This document shows positions 59,717 to 64,000 of a stretch of DNA of 64,000 bases, piece by piece; the first letter of the stretch is position 1; every line of letters starts with the position of its first letter. The position numbers and the translations under genes were made by a program. Source of the stretch: Marinomonas vulgaris (lineage in GTDB: Bacteria; Pseudomonadota; Gammaproteobacteria; Pseudomonadales; Marinomonadaceae); contig NZ_JAGSSV010000012.1 of assembly GCF_018145875.1 (NCBI RefSeq), forward strand, positions 1 to 64,000. The letters run 5' to 3'. The notes below the pieces were generated by a model. That model saw nothing but the letters and a program-made list of their open reading frames with translations, made no database searches and was not told the DNA's origin.

Positions 59717-62485
59717 TTGGCTACGGATTCAACAACACAAACTCCCATGATCTTGGTAGACGGCTCGTCTTACTTATATCGAGCGTTTCACGCGATTCCC
59801 CCAATGAGCACCAGCACGGGGCATCCGACAAACGCGACCCGTGGTGTGATCAGCATGATCCGCAGCCTGATAAAAACCTACCCAGATTCTCCCATGGTGA
59901 TCATTTTCGACGCCAAGGGCAAAACCTTCCGCGATGAGATCTACAGCGAATACAAAGCACAACGCCCGCCCATGCCCGACGATCTTCGTCCGCAAATCGA
60001 GCCGATTCACCGCATGGTCGAAGCCATGGGCTTGCCGCTGGTCATCATTGATGGCGTGGAAGCCGACGACGTGATCGGCACCATCGCCAAGCAAGTGGGC
60101 GAAACCGGCCGTGAGGTCGTCGTTTCAACGGGCGACAAAGACATGGCGCAGCTGGTCACCGACAAGGTCACCCTCGTCAATACCATGAACAACACCGTCA
60201 TGGACATTCAAGGCGTGAAAGACAAGTTCGGCATTCCGCCAGAGCTTATCATCGATTATTTGGCTCTAATGGGCGACAAGGTCGACAATATTCCTGGCGT
60301 GCCGGGCGTGGGCGAAAAAACCGCTTTGGCGCTGTTACAAGGCTTGGGTAGCATCAAAGAAATTTACACCCGCCTCGACGACATCGCGGCGCTGGGCTTT
60401 CGTGGCTCGAAAACCTTGGCGAAGAAAATGGCCGACAACAAAGACATGGCGGAATTGTCTTACACCTTGGCGACCATTAAATGCGACGTGGAACTGCCGT
60501 TTAATTCCCTTGAGCTAAAAAACGGCGAAGCCGACAAAGAGGTGCTGAAGGAATGGTTCGCCAAGATGGAATTCAAAACCTGGCTGAGTGATTTGGACAA
60601 AGCCCCCAGTGTCGAAGACGCCAGTGATACCGTAGCGAACAACGATGGCCAAGCGGCCGCGCCCGTTGCGTCTAATATCGAAGCCAATTACACCACTGTC
60701 CTCGACAAAGAGACCTTCGCCGTTTGGTTAGAAACCATTCAAAACGCCAAACTCACTGCTTTTGATACCGAAACCACCAGCTTGAATTACATGGCGGCGG
60801 AATTGGTTGGCGTGTCTTTCTCGGTAGAAGCCGGCGTGGCGGCGTATGTGCCGTTCGCCCACGATTACGAAGGTGCGCCGGAACAGCTCGACCGCGCTTG
60901 GGTACTTGAACAGCTCAAGCCTTGGCTCGAAGACGACAGCAAAGCCAAAGTCGGCCAGCACCTTAAATACGACGCCAACGTGCTCAACAATTACGATATC
61001 ACCTTGCGCGGCATCGCCTACGACACCATGTTGGAATCTTACGTGTACAACTCCGTGAGCTCCCGCCATGACATGGACACGCTGGCGAAAAAATTCCTCG
61101 ATCACACCTGTGTCAGTTTTGAAGAACTCGCGGGTAAAGGTAAGAAACAAAAAACCTTCAACGAAATCGACCTAGAACAAGCGGCGTTTTACGCGGCGGA
61201 AGACGCCGACATCACCTTGCGCCTTCACCAAGCCATCTGGCCACAAGTCGAGAAAATACCGGGCTTAGTCAGCGTTTTTAACGACATCGAGTGCCCTCTT
61301 GTGCCGGTATTGGCGAAAATGGAACAAACCGGCGCCTTGATCGATCCAGAATTGTTGCACGCTCAAAGTGCAGAAATCGCCGGTAAATTACAAGAACTAG
61401 AAATCAAAGCCCACGAAGAAGCCGGTGAAAGCTTCAACTTGAGTTCGCCAAAACAACTGCAAGTGATCTTGTTCGAAAAGCAAGGTTTGCCGGTGATTAA
61501 GAAAACGCCAAAAGGCCAACCCTCTACTGCCGAGCCTATCTTGCAAGAACTGGCTGAAAACCACGAATTGCCACGCTTGATCATGGAACACCGCACCTTG
61601 TCTAAGTTGAAATCCACTTACACCGACAAGCTGCCCGAAATGATCCAGAAAACCGGCCGTATTCACACGTCTTACCATCAAGCGATCACCGCCACGGGGC
61701 GTTTATCGTCGACCGATCCAAACTTACAAAACATCCCGATCCGCTCGGCAGAAGGTCGTCGGATTCGCCAAGCCTTCGTCGCGCCAACCGGCTACAAGCT
61801 GGTCGCAGCCGATTACTCGCAAGTAGAACTGCGCATCATGGCGCACTTGTCACAAGACAAAGGTCTGCTAGATGCTTTTACCAAAGACGCCGATGTGCAC
61901 AAAGCCACCGCAGCGGAAGTGTTTGAAGTCACATTAGACGAAGTCACCACCGAACAACGCCGTCGCGCCAAAGCCATCAACTTCGGCTTGATCTACGGCA
62001 TGTCCGCTTTTGGTCTAGCGAAACAACTTGGCATTAGCCGCCCAGAAGCCGCGAAATACATCCAGCGCTACTTCGAGCGCTACCCCGGCGTGCAGCAATA
62101 CATGGAAAACACCCGTGAAGGCGCGAAAGAAAAAGGCTTTGTAGAAACCATTTATGGCCGTCGTTTGTACCTGCCCGACATCAAAGCGAAAAACGCCATG
62201 ATGCGCCAAGCCGCCGAACGCACCGCGATCAACGCACCAATGCAAGGCTCCGCCGCCGACATCATCAAACGCGCCATGATCAAAATGCACGACTGGCTCG
62301 CCAACACCGACCTAGACGTAAAAATGATCCTACAGGTACACGATGAACTCATCTTTGAAGTAGCGGAAAAAGACCTAGACGCCGCCCAAGCGAAAATCGT
62401 CGACATCATGCAAAACAGCAGCAAAATCGACGTACCTTTGTTGGTCGAAGCGGGTGTTGGGGATAACTGGGACGAGGCGCATTAA
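59717..62485 (+). CDS. polA: DNA polymerase I
   Basis: Fills gaps and removes RNA primers. 922 residues: 5'-3' exonuclease domain (about 1-290, starting MILVDGSSYLYRAFH at residue 12), 3'-5' exonuclease with FDTETTSLNY (DxE kept, so proofreading is probably active), then the polymerase domain with motif A DYSQVELRIMAHLS, motif B RRRAKAINFGLIYGMSAF and motif C QVHDELIFE. The start is TTG at 59717 with AGAGG seven bases upstream; an ATG at 59750 lacks a good site. The last 211 bases occur again at 63661-63871, with the abi gene between. Confidence 0.97.
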   Translation: MATDSTTQTPMILVDGSSYLYRAFHAIPPMSTSTGHPTNATRGVISMIRSLIKTYPDSPMVIIFDAKGKTFRDEIYSEYKAQRPPMPDDLRPQIEPIHRMVEAMGLPLVIIDGVEADDVIGTIAKQVGETGREVVVSTGDKDMAQLVTDKVTLVNTMNNTVMDIQGVKDKFGIPPELIIDYLALMGDKVDNIPGVPGVGEKTALALLQGLGSIKEIYTRLDDIAALGFRGSKTLAKKMADNKDMAELSYTLATIKCDVELPFNSLELKNGEADKEVLKEWFAKMEFKTWLSDLDKAPSVEDASDTVANNDGQAAAPVASNIEANYTTVLDKETFAVWLETIQNAKLTAFDTETTSLNYMAAELVGVSFSVEAGVAAYVPFAHDYEGAPEQLDRAWVLEQLKPWLEDDSKAKVGQHLKYDANVLNNYDITLRGIAYDTMLESYVYNSVSSRHDMDTLAKKFLDHTCVSFEELAGKGKKQKTFNEIDLEQAAFYAAEDADITLRLHQAIWPQVEKIPGLVSVFNDIECPLVPVLAKMEQTGALIDPELLHAQSAEIAGKLQELEIKAHEEAGESFNLSSPKQLQVILFEKQGLPVIKKTPKGQPSTAEPILQELAENHELPRLIMEHRTLSKLKSTYTDKLPEMIQKTGRIHTSYHQAITATGRLSSTDPNLQNIPIRSAEGRRIRQAFVAPTGYKLVAADYSQVELRIMAHLSQDKGLLDAFTKDADVHKATAAEVFEVTLDEVTTEQRRRAKAINFGLIYGMSAFGLAKQLGISRPEAAKYIQRYFERYPGVQQYMENTREGAKEKGFVETIYGRRLYLPDIKAKNAMMRQAAERTAINAPMQGSAADIIKRAMIKMHDWLANTDLDVKMILQVHDELIFEVAEKDLDAAQAKIVDIMQNSSKIDVPLLVEAGVGDNWDEAH
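62274..62484 (+). repeat. polA 3'-end direct repeat, copy A
   Basis: The final 211 bases of polA, to one base before its stop codon end, are repeated at 63661-63871. By direct alignment there are 11 mismatches and no gaps; only one changes an amino acid (Asn here, Asp in copy B), the rest being silent. Confidence 0.97.
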
Positions 62486-62528
62486 GCGCCTCTAAAGTCA
62501 CAAGCATAGATATACCAGAGGGAACTGT

Positions 62529-63527
62529 ATGTATAACAAGCCATGGCTCAGTTACGAGCAACAACTTGATAAGCTCATTGAAAATGGGCTTATCATTAAT
62601 GATAGAAACAAAGCTCTCTCATTTTTGGAAAGAATTGGATACTACCGACTCAGCGGCTATTGGCATCCTTTCAAACAAAGATCTGAACTTTGCTGCCTGT
62701 ACAACCCAGCAATAAAAAAGCCTAATAAAAAACAAAAACGTGCAACAACATTAGTATTTGACCAGTTTATTACTGGGGCCAATTTCCAAAGTGCTGTCGA
62801 TTTGTATATTTTCGATAAAAAACTAAGGATGATTGTCTTAGATGCGTTAGAGCGTATTGAAGTCGCTCTTCGGGTGGATATATCTCATACCCTTGGGAGA
62901 AATAGCCCTTTCGCCTATTTAGAGCCTGATCATTTCAAAGATTTATTTAGCAAGCAAGTCGACACCAAAACAGGTGTTATTCCACAGCATGCTTGGCTAC
63001 AAAGTCACGCCAATCTGATATCTCGCTCTAAAGAAGAGTTCATTCTGCATACAAAAGAAAAGTACGGTTTGCCCGTTCCTATTTGGATTGCCTGTGAAGT
63101 ATGGGATTTTGGAACATTATCTCGACTCTTCAAGGGTATGCTGCCTGAGCAACAAACATTAATTGCAAAAAAATACGGCGTGACGAAAGGAGAAACGCTT
63201 GAATCATGGCTACGTTGCTTAAACTATCTTCGTAACGTCTGCGCACATCATAGCCGTCTATGGAATCGCAATATGATTGAGCAACCAAAGCAAGAAGGCC
63301 TAAAGGACATTAACCATTTCACTGATAGCTTGAGTGCTCATGCTCTCGCAAGGCCCTTCCTACAGCTTTGCATAACTCAGCACCTTCTAACAAAGATCAA
63401 CCCTAATTCCACATGGTGGGAGCGCTTAAAAAGCTTACTTAATGAGTTTCCTGACCTAACAGAACAAGGTATAACTTTGGAGGCAATGGGAATGATTGAA
63501 GACTACACAGAATGGCGTTGGCAATAA
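62529..63527 (+). CDS. abiF: Abi_2-family (AbiF/AbiD-like) HEPN abortive-infection protein
   Basis: A 332-residue Abi_2 protein. It starts YNKPWLSYEQQLDKLIENGL and contains RIGYYRLSGYWHPF and a HEPN nuclease motif RNVCAH (R235, H240) within NYLRNVCAHHSRLWNR. A second R-X4-H (RVDISH, 115-120) is present. HEPN proteins of this family are RNases linked to phage defence and are considered relatives of Cas13. Its codon use is clearly more A+T-rich than polA and neighbours. GAGGGAAC lies before the ATG, 43 bases after polA; no clear promoter was seen, so it may be read from polA. Its targets are not known. Confidence 0.88.
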   Translation: MYNKPWLSYEQQLDKLIENGLIINDRNKALSFLERIGYYRLSGYWHPFKQRSELCCLYNPAIKKPNKKQKRATTLVFDQFITGANFQSAVDLYIFDKKLRMIVLDALERIEVALRVDISHTLGRNSPFAYLEPDHFKDLFSKQVDTKTGVIPQHAWLQSHANLISRSKEEFILHTKEKYGLPVPIWIACEVWDFGTLSRLFKGMLPEQQTLIAKKYGVTKGETLESWLRCLNYLRNVCAHHSRLWNRNMIEQPKQEGLKDINHFTDSLSAHALARPFLQLCITQHLLTKINPNSTWWERLKSLLNEFPDLTEQGITLEAMGMIEDYTEWRWQ

Positions 63528-63530
63528 AAA

Positions 63531-63640
63531 ACCCCTAAGCAGATCAGTTGTAAGCAACATCACTGAAAGGGGCCGTGTTGAGATTAATTATGAACCACGA
63601 GTTCATTTTGTGCAACGGTGGAACGATTACTCTAGATATA
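63531..63640 (+). ncRNA. possible AbiF-associated small RNA
   Basis: Beginning 4 bases after the abiF stop, the non-coding stretch has several pairings: CCCCT (63532-63536) with AGGGG (63568-63572), an inner CAGT/ACTG or GTTG/CAAC helix, GTTG (63577-63580) with CAAC (63613-63616), and a perfect ATGAAC/GTTCAT hairpin (63590-63606). A conserved RNA motif (abiF RNA) is known beside Abi_2 genes, and position and fold are compatible. I could not check the covariance model, and 3' limit is approximate. Confidence 0.5.
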
Positions 63641-63660
63641 AATGTCAAATTATTATTATA

Positions 63661-63872
63661 CCATGATCAAAATGCACGACTGGCTCGCCGACACCGACCT
63701 AGACGTGAAAATGATCCTACAAGTACACGATGAACTGATCTTCGAAGTAGCGGAAAAAGACCTAGACGCCGCCCAAGCGAAAATCGTCGACATCATGCAA
63801 AACAGCAGCAAAATAGACGTGCCTTTGCTTGTGGAAGCGGGTGTTGGGGACAACTGGGACGAGGCGCATTAG
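63661..63872 (+). pseudogene. polA 3'-end fragment, copy B
   Basis: Encodes the last 69 or so residues of DNA polymerase I in frame, from MIKMHDWLAD through motif C (QVHDELIFEV) to DNWDEAH and a TAG stop. It has no polymerase N-terminus and no start site, so it is a remnant of the polA end displaced by the abi insertion. It is followed by a terminator 24 bases later. Confidence 0.92.
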
Positions 63873-63895
63873 CGGGCTTAGATAAACCCTAGAAC

Positions 63896-63927
63896 AAAAA
63901 AAGCCATGCATGAGCATGGCTTTCTAT
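63896..63927. terminator. terminator after the polA fragment
   Basis: AAAGCCATGC (63900-63909) and GCATGGCTTT (63914-63923), a 10-bp stem with a 4-base loop. An A run on the left gives a strong T tract for a minus-strand gene beyond the window; the plus-strand T run is weaker. It is probably the original polA terminator. Confidence 0.8.
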
Positions 63928-64000
63928 TTCGTCTGTCTTCGGTGGGCTGCCTAAGCAGGGATATCCGAAGCACTCGTTGATAATGCTAGCCAAAAGAAGC
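63928..64000. other. no gene recognised at the window end
   Basis: The last 73 bases carry no identifiable gene. On the minus strand a short open frame ends at a TAG at 63952-63954 and could be the C-terminus of a gene starting beyond the window, but it is too short to judge. Confidence 0.3.

Follow-up and report, generated by a model that had tools for sequence, protein, structure and literature searches.

Repeated polA ends and defence-like gene cassettes behind polA in Marinomonas

In Marinomonas vulgaris, polA, the gene for DNA polymerase I, is followed by an array of small defence-like genes that are separated from one another by additional copies of the polA 3′ end. The array begins in the stretch of DNA analysed here (the window: 64,000 nucleotides (nt), positions 1 to 64,000 of contig NZ_JAGSSV010000012.1, assembly GCF_018145875.1), and relatives carry related arrays, different cassettes or an empty site at the same place. 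In the genus Marinomonas, the 3′ flank of polA is probably, albeit narrowly so, a hotspot for cassettes whose cargo is mostly defence-like. The reading to which we incline, with much the same reserve, is that cassettes bring the polA end of a donor, recombine with the resident gene, regenerate polA and displace its old end.

The polA locus of the window

The features of the locus are listed below.

59717..62485, + strand: intact polA (DNA polymerase I), an open reading frame (ORF) with Pfam DNA_pol_A, 5′-3′ exonuclease and 3′-5′ exonuclease domains
62274..62484, + strand: R1, the 211-nt 3′ end of the intact polA, of which further copies follow downstream, from a repeat search
62529..63527, + strand: gene of the abiF/abiD family, 332 amino acids (aa), Abi_2 domain, motif RNVCAH, from ORF, Pfam and PADLOC analysis
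63528..63590, strand undecided: conserved hairpin 3′ of abiF, candidate non-coding RNA (ncRNA) or terminator, from conservation in six sequences
63661..63871, + strand: R2, second polA 3′ end (scar), 94.8% identical to R1, from a repeat search
63896..63926, + strand: terminator-like hairpin behind R2, at the beginning of a further cassette that runs past the window, from the sequence

The second 211-nt polA end that a first, sequence-only reading had placed behind polA and abiF is present, R1 and R2 forming a direct repeat with a spacing of 1387 nt, and the polA ORF is readable to its normal stop despite the insert downstream. An assembly artefact is unlikely because the two copies differ at approximately 5% of sites and lie inside one 78,849-bp contig; it is also disfavoured by the extra polA ends found behind polA in 19 further genomes. 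The same reading had closed the element at 63923, an end that was not borne out, given that a second Abi_2-like gene (C3:64032-64682, equal to L003:2033-2683; 216 aa) and a third polA end, R3 (C3:64689-64887; 91% identical to the polA end), follow beyond the window. The order on the contig is polA, R1, abiF, R2, the 216-aa gene, R3, 69 nt and mtgA, and the second gene and R3 are both reached within 0.9 kb past the window, ahead of mtgA. Identity to R1 drops with distance from polA, from R2 to R3 (90% over 201 nt), which fits the expectation that the polA-proximal cassette is the younger. The 216-aa gene is preceded by the terminator hairpin and a conserved run of about 30 nt (window 63896-63960), and both also stand ahead of other genes, as leaders behind polA in G016, G026, G033, G035 and G040; the shared stretch may be the former terminator of polA or else a leader belonging to the cassettes.

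The abiF product matches Abi_2 (PF07751, E = 3.8e-57) with 194 bits, above the curated cut-off of 25.6 on which family membership rests, and PADLOC assigns it to AbiD (E = 1.4e-66). The match of the 216-aa protein to Abi_2 is weak (E = 2.8e-8; 34.7 bits versus the same cut-off), no single stretch of it being significant. The motif RNVCAH in the former and RNRCGHH in the latter are of the form RxxxxH, which we take to be the HEPN motif. Among the 48 genomes of the genus, 17 have an AbiF match (E ≤ 1e-20), which lies behind polA in eight, namely in every one of the five whose identity is 78% or higher and in three at 44–45%; in the remaining nine, including G006 at 46%, the gene is located elsewhere. 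A wider collection yielded 21 AbiF loci, the four from Marinomonas lying behind polA or in an array behind it. That AbiF cassettes elsewhere might be flanked by other repeated gene ends was rejected, as the 17 non-Marinomonas loci had neither polA nor a flanking direct repeat in the available flanks.

Approximately 130 nt of non-coding DNA separate abiF from R2, and the sequence-only reading had called this DNA structured. The fold of the single sequence is no better than that of shuffled sequences (z of −0.47 on the + strand and −0.21 on the − strand), but about 60 nt, directly behind abiF, are nearly invariant in six Marinomonas sequences from six species. The consensus hairpin has 17 predicted pairs, two of them with a compensatory change, and its T-run is on the − strand. 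Given a covariation term somewhat on the unfavourable side (+0.39 kcal/mol), a fold at shuffle level and the lack of a match to any Rfam family, abiF-motif RNA RF03085 included, either at the gathering cut-off or at E ≤ 5, the hairpin is only a candidate for a functional RNA.

polA ends and cassettes across the genus

The polA end was matched in 47 of the 48 genus genomes; G019, despite 99% completeness, is the sole genome without a match to the polA C-terminus. Extra polA ends (scars) stand behind the intact gene in 20 of the 47 at E ≤ 0.001, and in 18 at E ≤ 1e-5, all on the same contig, within 6 kb and in the same orientation. Outside the genus, none were detected in 227 matching genomes (E ≤ 1e-6), a search that could have missed scars of distant taxa where these are short or diverged. 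These genomes come from an order-level sample of 244, of which 10 belong to the genus and 234 do not, 227 of the latter with one match and seven with none at the same threshold; the family-level sample contained Marinomonas only.

Empty and occupied sites, the comparison proposed as a check by the sequence-only reading, are represented by G039 and G035. At the empty site, that of G039, polA and the next gene are 44 nt apart. At the occupied site of G035, a HEPN-like cassette lies between R1 and R2, and the same gene follows R2 after a spacer of 43 nt that is nearly identical to the 44 nt of G039 (one substitution, one deletion), R2 and spacer occupying the place of the polA end in G039. G044 and G045 have a common flank from the R2 stop onwards and different cassettes before it (Fic-containing versus AbiF). 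The genes directly behind polA in G009 are those that follow the AbiF cassette in G020, where no scar was found, and mtgA starts 639 nt behind polA in G047. In Marinomonas rhodophyticola, polA is followed by a HEPN-like gene, a repeated end (91%, start at −201) and AbiF, which are the two cassette types of the window in reverse order. There are also scars without an enclosed cassette (G003, G011 and G012), and the right flank of the hotspot varies among genomes as well. Other genes between polA ends, a further expectation of the first reading, are present in relatives as HEPN-like and Fic-containing cassettes. Since empty sites exist and misassembly is unlikely, neither of the outcomes that would have undone the idea of a small cassette entering at polA without an integrase, through homologous recombination or with a gene end of its own, was encountered, and the idea gains from these sites and from the searches for integrases described below, the defence role being a prediction.

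By Pfam, the cargo behind polA, taken from scarred and scarless genomes alike, comprises AbiF, the 216-aa Abi_2-like protein, SIR2, HipA with a helix-turn-helix (HTH) protein, Fic, HamA with helicase parts (presumably Hachiman-like), HD with an AEP-like protein, CAP12/PCTIR TIR, AAA_21, HATPase with HSDR_N, AAA_15 with GmrSD and a cytosine methylase, a NERD/Schlafen helicase and FRG. Some of it, such as Glyco_hydro_3 and LysE, is not defence-like, and 15 of the 40 cargo proteins examined (out of 48 picked, not all between polA ends) belong to no Pfam family at E ≤ 0.001. The putative defence role of the cargo is predicted from family membership. In PADLOC, the 100 polA-proximal proteins gave matches to 187 families, AbiD in 12, versus 45 families for 106 proteins situated 5–8.5 kb downstream, and the matches listed for the latter also include Dnd and further defence models; 25 families of each list were inspected, and as these numbers count families, not proteins, defence enrichment next to polA is only indicative. 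Cassettes are common to G035 and G039 (c52), G030 and G044 (c48), and G038 and G043 (c54-c56), and the four proteins tested from them have no Pfam family, making these cassettes candidates for unknown defence genes. G025 and G037 carry behind polA a two-gene cassette with a weak HATPase match and a DUF4325 STAS-like protein.

No integrase was found by Pfam among the 40 cargo proteins or among the matches listed (25 of 72 Pfam families) for the 100 polA-proximal proteins, and a scan of limited sensitivity detected no recombinase signature in the 387 kb behind 47 polA genes, one unconvincing match aside. The eight PF00589 matches in the genome of the window are all on other contigs. In the AbiF and HEPN-like cassettes no transposase was detected. 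Y1 transposase was matched in six of the 100 proximal proteins and IS66 in one, among the matches listed. The locus shares with integrative islands the flanking direct repeats and the readable target gene, but an element-encoded integrase was seen neither among the cargo proteins nor in the Pfam families listed nor in the signature scan. An integron would have an integrase beside its array; no recombinase signature was detected near polA in that scan, and the cassettes are separated by polA ends. With minimal mobile elements the locus shares varied whole-gene cassettes that occupy a single conserved position and, apart from a few Y1 and IS66 matches nearby, come without genes of mobile elements; as to incorporation through homologous recombination alone, the partly decoupled polA end and the clustered scar starts described below point in different directions. 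Among the 47 genus loci, a 27-member ORF cluster behind polA is of the kind matched by Y1 transposase, and a palindromic repeat of about 75 nt stands beside polA in several genomes; together these look to us like RAYT/REP elements.

Proposed cassette entry at the polA end

The arrangement suggests the following course of events. A cassette, consisting of one gene or a small operon without a recombinase of its own, would arrive joined to the 3′ end of a donor polA. Recombination within approximately the last 0.3 kb of polA would yield an intact hybrid gene, and the last 200 nt or so of the recipient's own polA would be pushed downstream as a scar. The enzyme would most likely be of RecA type, the crossover being anchored in the conserved block before −200 (divergence of 0.04–0.08 in distant pairs) and the other end joined nearby; such a block would readily anchor interspecies recombination, the joint lying just beyond it, much as in the displacement model for the V. 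cholerae arrays described below (PMC5361080). In the presumed direction and order of insertion, later cassettes would enter at the polA-proximal position to give the array polA-C1-R2-C2-R3-native flank, and the R copies may then act as homology for gain, loss and shuffling. As the putative vehicle, a plasmid or phage bearing a polA end was rejected: the 69-aa polA end was matched by 77 of 72,556 plasmid records and 54 of 50,697 phage records, each at less than 60% identity, in sets that may leave out records near the genome of the window. A degenerate polA-tail pattern had one match in viral_contigs, and this proved to be an entire polymerase ORF rather than a polA end standing alone.

The polA end differs from the rest of the gene in a manner consistent with exchange. 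In eight close pairs, which share genomes, divergence is 9.5–15.7% in the last 210 nt versus 2.5–5.7% upstream in polA, with a step up at about −195 that is absent in 858 distant pairs. Across 46 genomes, the end window correlates with upstream windows at 0.45–0.53, while the upstream windows correlate among themselves at 0.70–0.78; linkage of the end to upstream polA is reduced. An earlier comparison reused the windows that had selected the pairs; in the fair test, with pairs chosen on other sequence, end divergence exceeded the control in 14 of 16 (p = 0.0003), 14 of 17 (p = 0.003) and 12 of 17 (p = 0.08) pairs. The changed codons in the eight close pairs are mostly synonymous, though with a higher nonsynonymous share than upstream, and on this ground hypermutation was rejected as the source of the divergence.

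Several observations weigh against entry with a donor end. No scar is recognisable in 27 of the 47 genomes, and the last of the three unbiased comparisons is not significant. In 11 of 19 scars, the start falls 198–228 nt before the stop across unrelated cargo, which suggests a site rather than general homology, although this interval was chosen after the starts had been seen and three of the 11 share one HEPN junction. (Not counted among the 19 are M. rhodophyticola, G034, G017 and additional short matches in G005 and G010; a 40-nt match 7.4 kb behind polA in G039 was dropped, and G044 and G045, when inspected by eye, have scars that reach about −213, beyond the BLAST start.) Only eight of 19 scars, in a slightly different set with the other G010 match, are closest to the polA end of their own genome, and 11 are closer to that of another species. 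In G001 and G027, the cassette is 99.8% identical and the adjoining polA ends only 90%, the change occurring at the stop codon; given that a donor end travelling with its cassette should be shared, a later replacement of the polA end must be assumed. The cassettes of G035 and G040 are likewise 96.9% identical and their scars 83.6%, with the first 16 nt or so of R2 in common and the rest different. Both pairs contradict models that place the crossover at one fixed point and have the cassette invariably accompanied by the polA end or by the scar. Such mismatches could have arisen if cassettes were gained and lost several times by way of the repeated ends, and some data fit neither RecA-type recombination nor a site-specific recombinase simply.

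A site-specific recombinase, tyrosine or other, lost or acting in trans on an attachment (att) site about 225–190 nt before the polA stop, would explain the clustered starts better, despite cargo as unlike as AbiF, HEPN-like, Fic and AAA_15/GmrSD/methylase, though it has no direct support. The element would carry the rest of polA to regenerate the gene, much as islands at guaA or tRNA genes regenerate the end of their target, and the cassettes would be recombinase-less relics or passengers; the direct repeats around a readable polA and the common first nucleotides of R2 in G035 and G040 agree with this. The 11 starts, however, are not independent, the interval was drawn post hoc and the exact starts differ; the three integrase searches, over the 40 cargo proteins, the 25 of 72 Pfam families listed and the signature scan of limited sensitivity, were negative, the PF00589 matches are on other contigs, and the same cassette adjoins different polA ends in G001 and G027. 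Site-specific integration hence appears possible, if on the unlikely side. More doubtful is that it takes the form of an undescribed Marinomonas cassette-capture system, integron-like in outcome, in which a recombinase in trans recognises polA about 225–190 nt before the stop, every captured defence cassette brings along a new polA end and the array, made up of single-gene defences, grows from the polA side.

The remaining explanations dispense with a travelling polA end. Staggered cutting and fill-in that copied about 200 nt of polA to both sides of a cassette would agree with the identity of the G001 and G027 cassettes, which begins at the polA stop, with the lower identity of the scar between G035 and G040 and with the eight of 19 scars that are closest to their own polA end; the other 11 are closer to that of another species, no transposase was detected in the AbiF and HEPN-like cassettes, and the decoupling of the intact polA end from upstream polA is left unexplained. 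We know of no target duplication of this length and regard it as very unlikely. An ordinary local duplication and decay of the gene end in a hypervariable region, unlinked to cassette entry, would accommodate the genomes without scars, the scars without cassettes and the variable right flank. It is at odds with the recurrence of scars within the genus (20 of 47 genomes, versus none of the 227 matching genomes outside it), their uniform orientation behind polA, the near-exact junction in G039 and G035 and the reordered arrays, and we hold such a coincidence to be highly improbable.

Relation to known systems

In the effector–immunity arrays of the type VI secretion system (T6SS) of Vibrio cholerae, new modules displace old 3′ ends and genes downstream without an integrase, for which homologous and homology-facilitated illegitimate recombination have been proposed (PMC5361080). 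Old gene ends would be pushed downstream into an array in Marinomonas too, with no integrase found beside it; in V. cholerae, however, the 5′ gene is itself a component of the weapon and has a 3′ end that changes function (PMC5361080), whereas polA is a housekeeping gene with an unchanged product, its end serving only as repair and homology. Minimal mobile elements of Neisseria likewise are varied whole-gene cassettes beside a conserved gene, with homologous recombination there, but they have two conserved flanking genes and no repeated ends in the excerpted description (PMC3898611), in contrast to the variable right flank and the separating polA ends found here. The polA locus further resembles hotspots that have no integrase and whose flanking core genes recombine (PMC5635113), as well as the core defence hotspots of Pseudomonas aeruginosa (PMC10250203), in that genes, among them defence genes, turn over rapidly beside a core gene, many without mobile-element genes; gene-end scars are not mentioned in the excerpts of either paper, and polA does not occur in that of the latter (PMC5635113, PMC10250203). 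With AbiF–ncRNA toxin–antitoxin systems, the window shares an Abi_2 protein that carries RxxxxH and, next to its gene, a conserved hairpin, but the RNA of the Clostridioides difficile system, as excerpted, lies upstream and matches RF03085 (PMC12373285), whereas the present hairpin is downstream and has no Rfam family. A polA-linked defence hotspot was not found in the openly licensed papers searched, among which one on an Aeromonas island has the wording 'downstream of polA' (PMC8667584). The polA locus is a variant of the known integrase-free hotspots.

It is an open question by what route small defence genes travel when no genes of mobile elements accompany them. In Marinomonas, one short locus combines scars, empty sites, both array orders and a gene end marked by recombination, which makes the mechanism directly testable. 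Given the 15 Pfam-less proteins among 40, the polA flank is also worth searching for new defence genes, and its arrangement would let further genes enter while polA stays unbroken.

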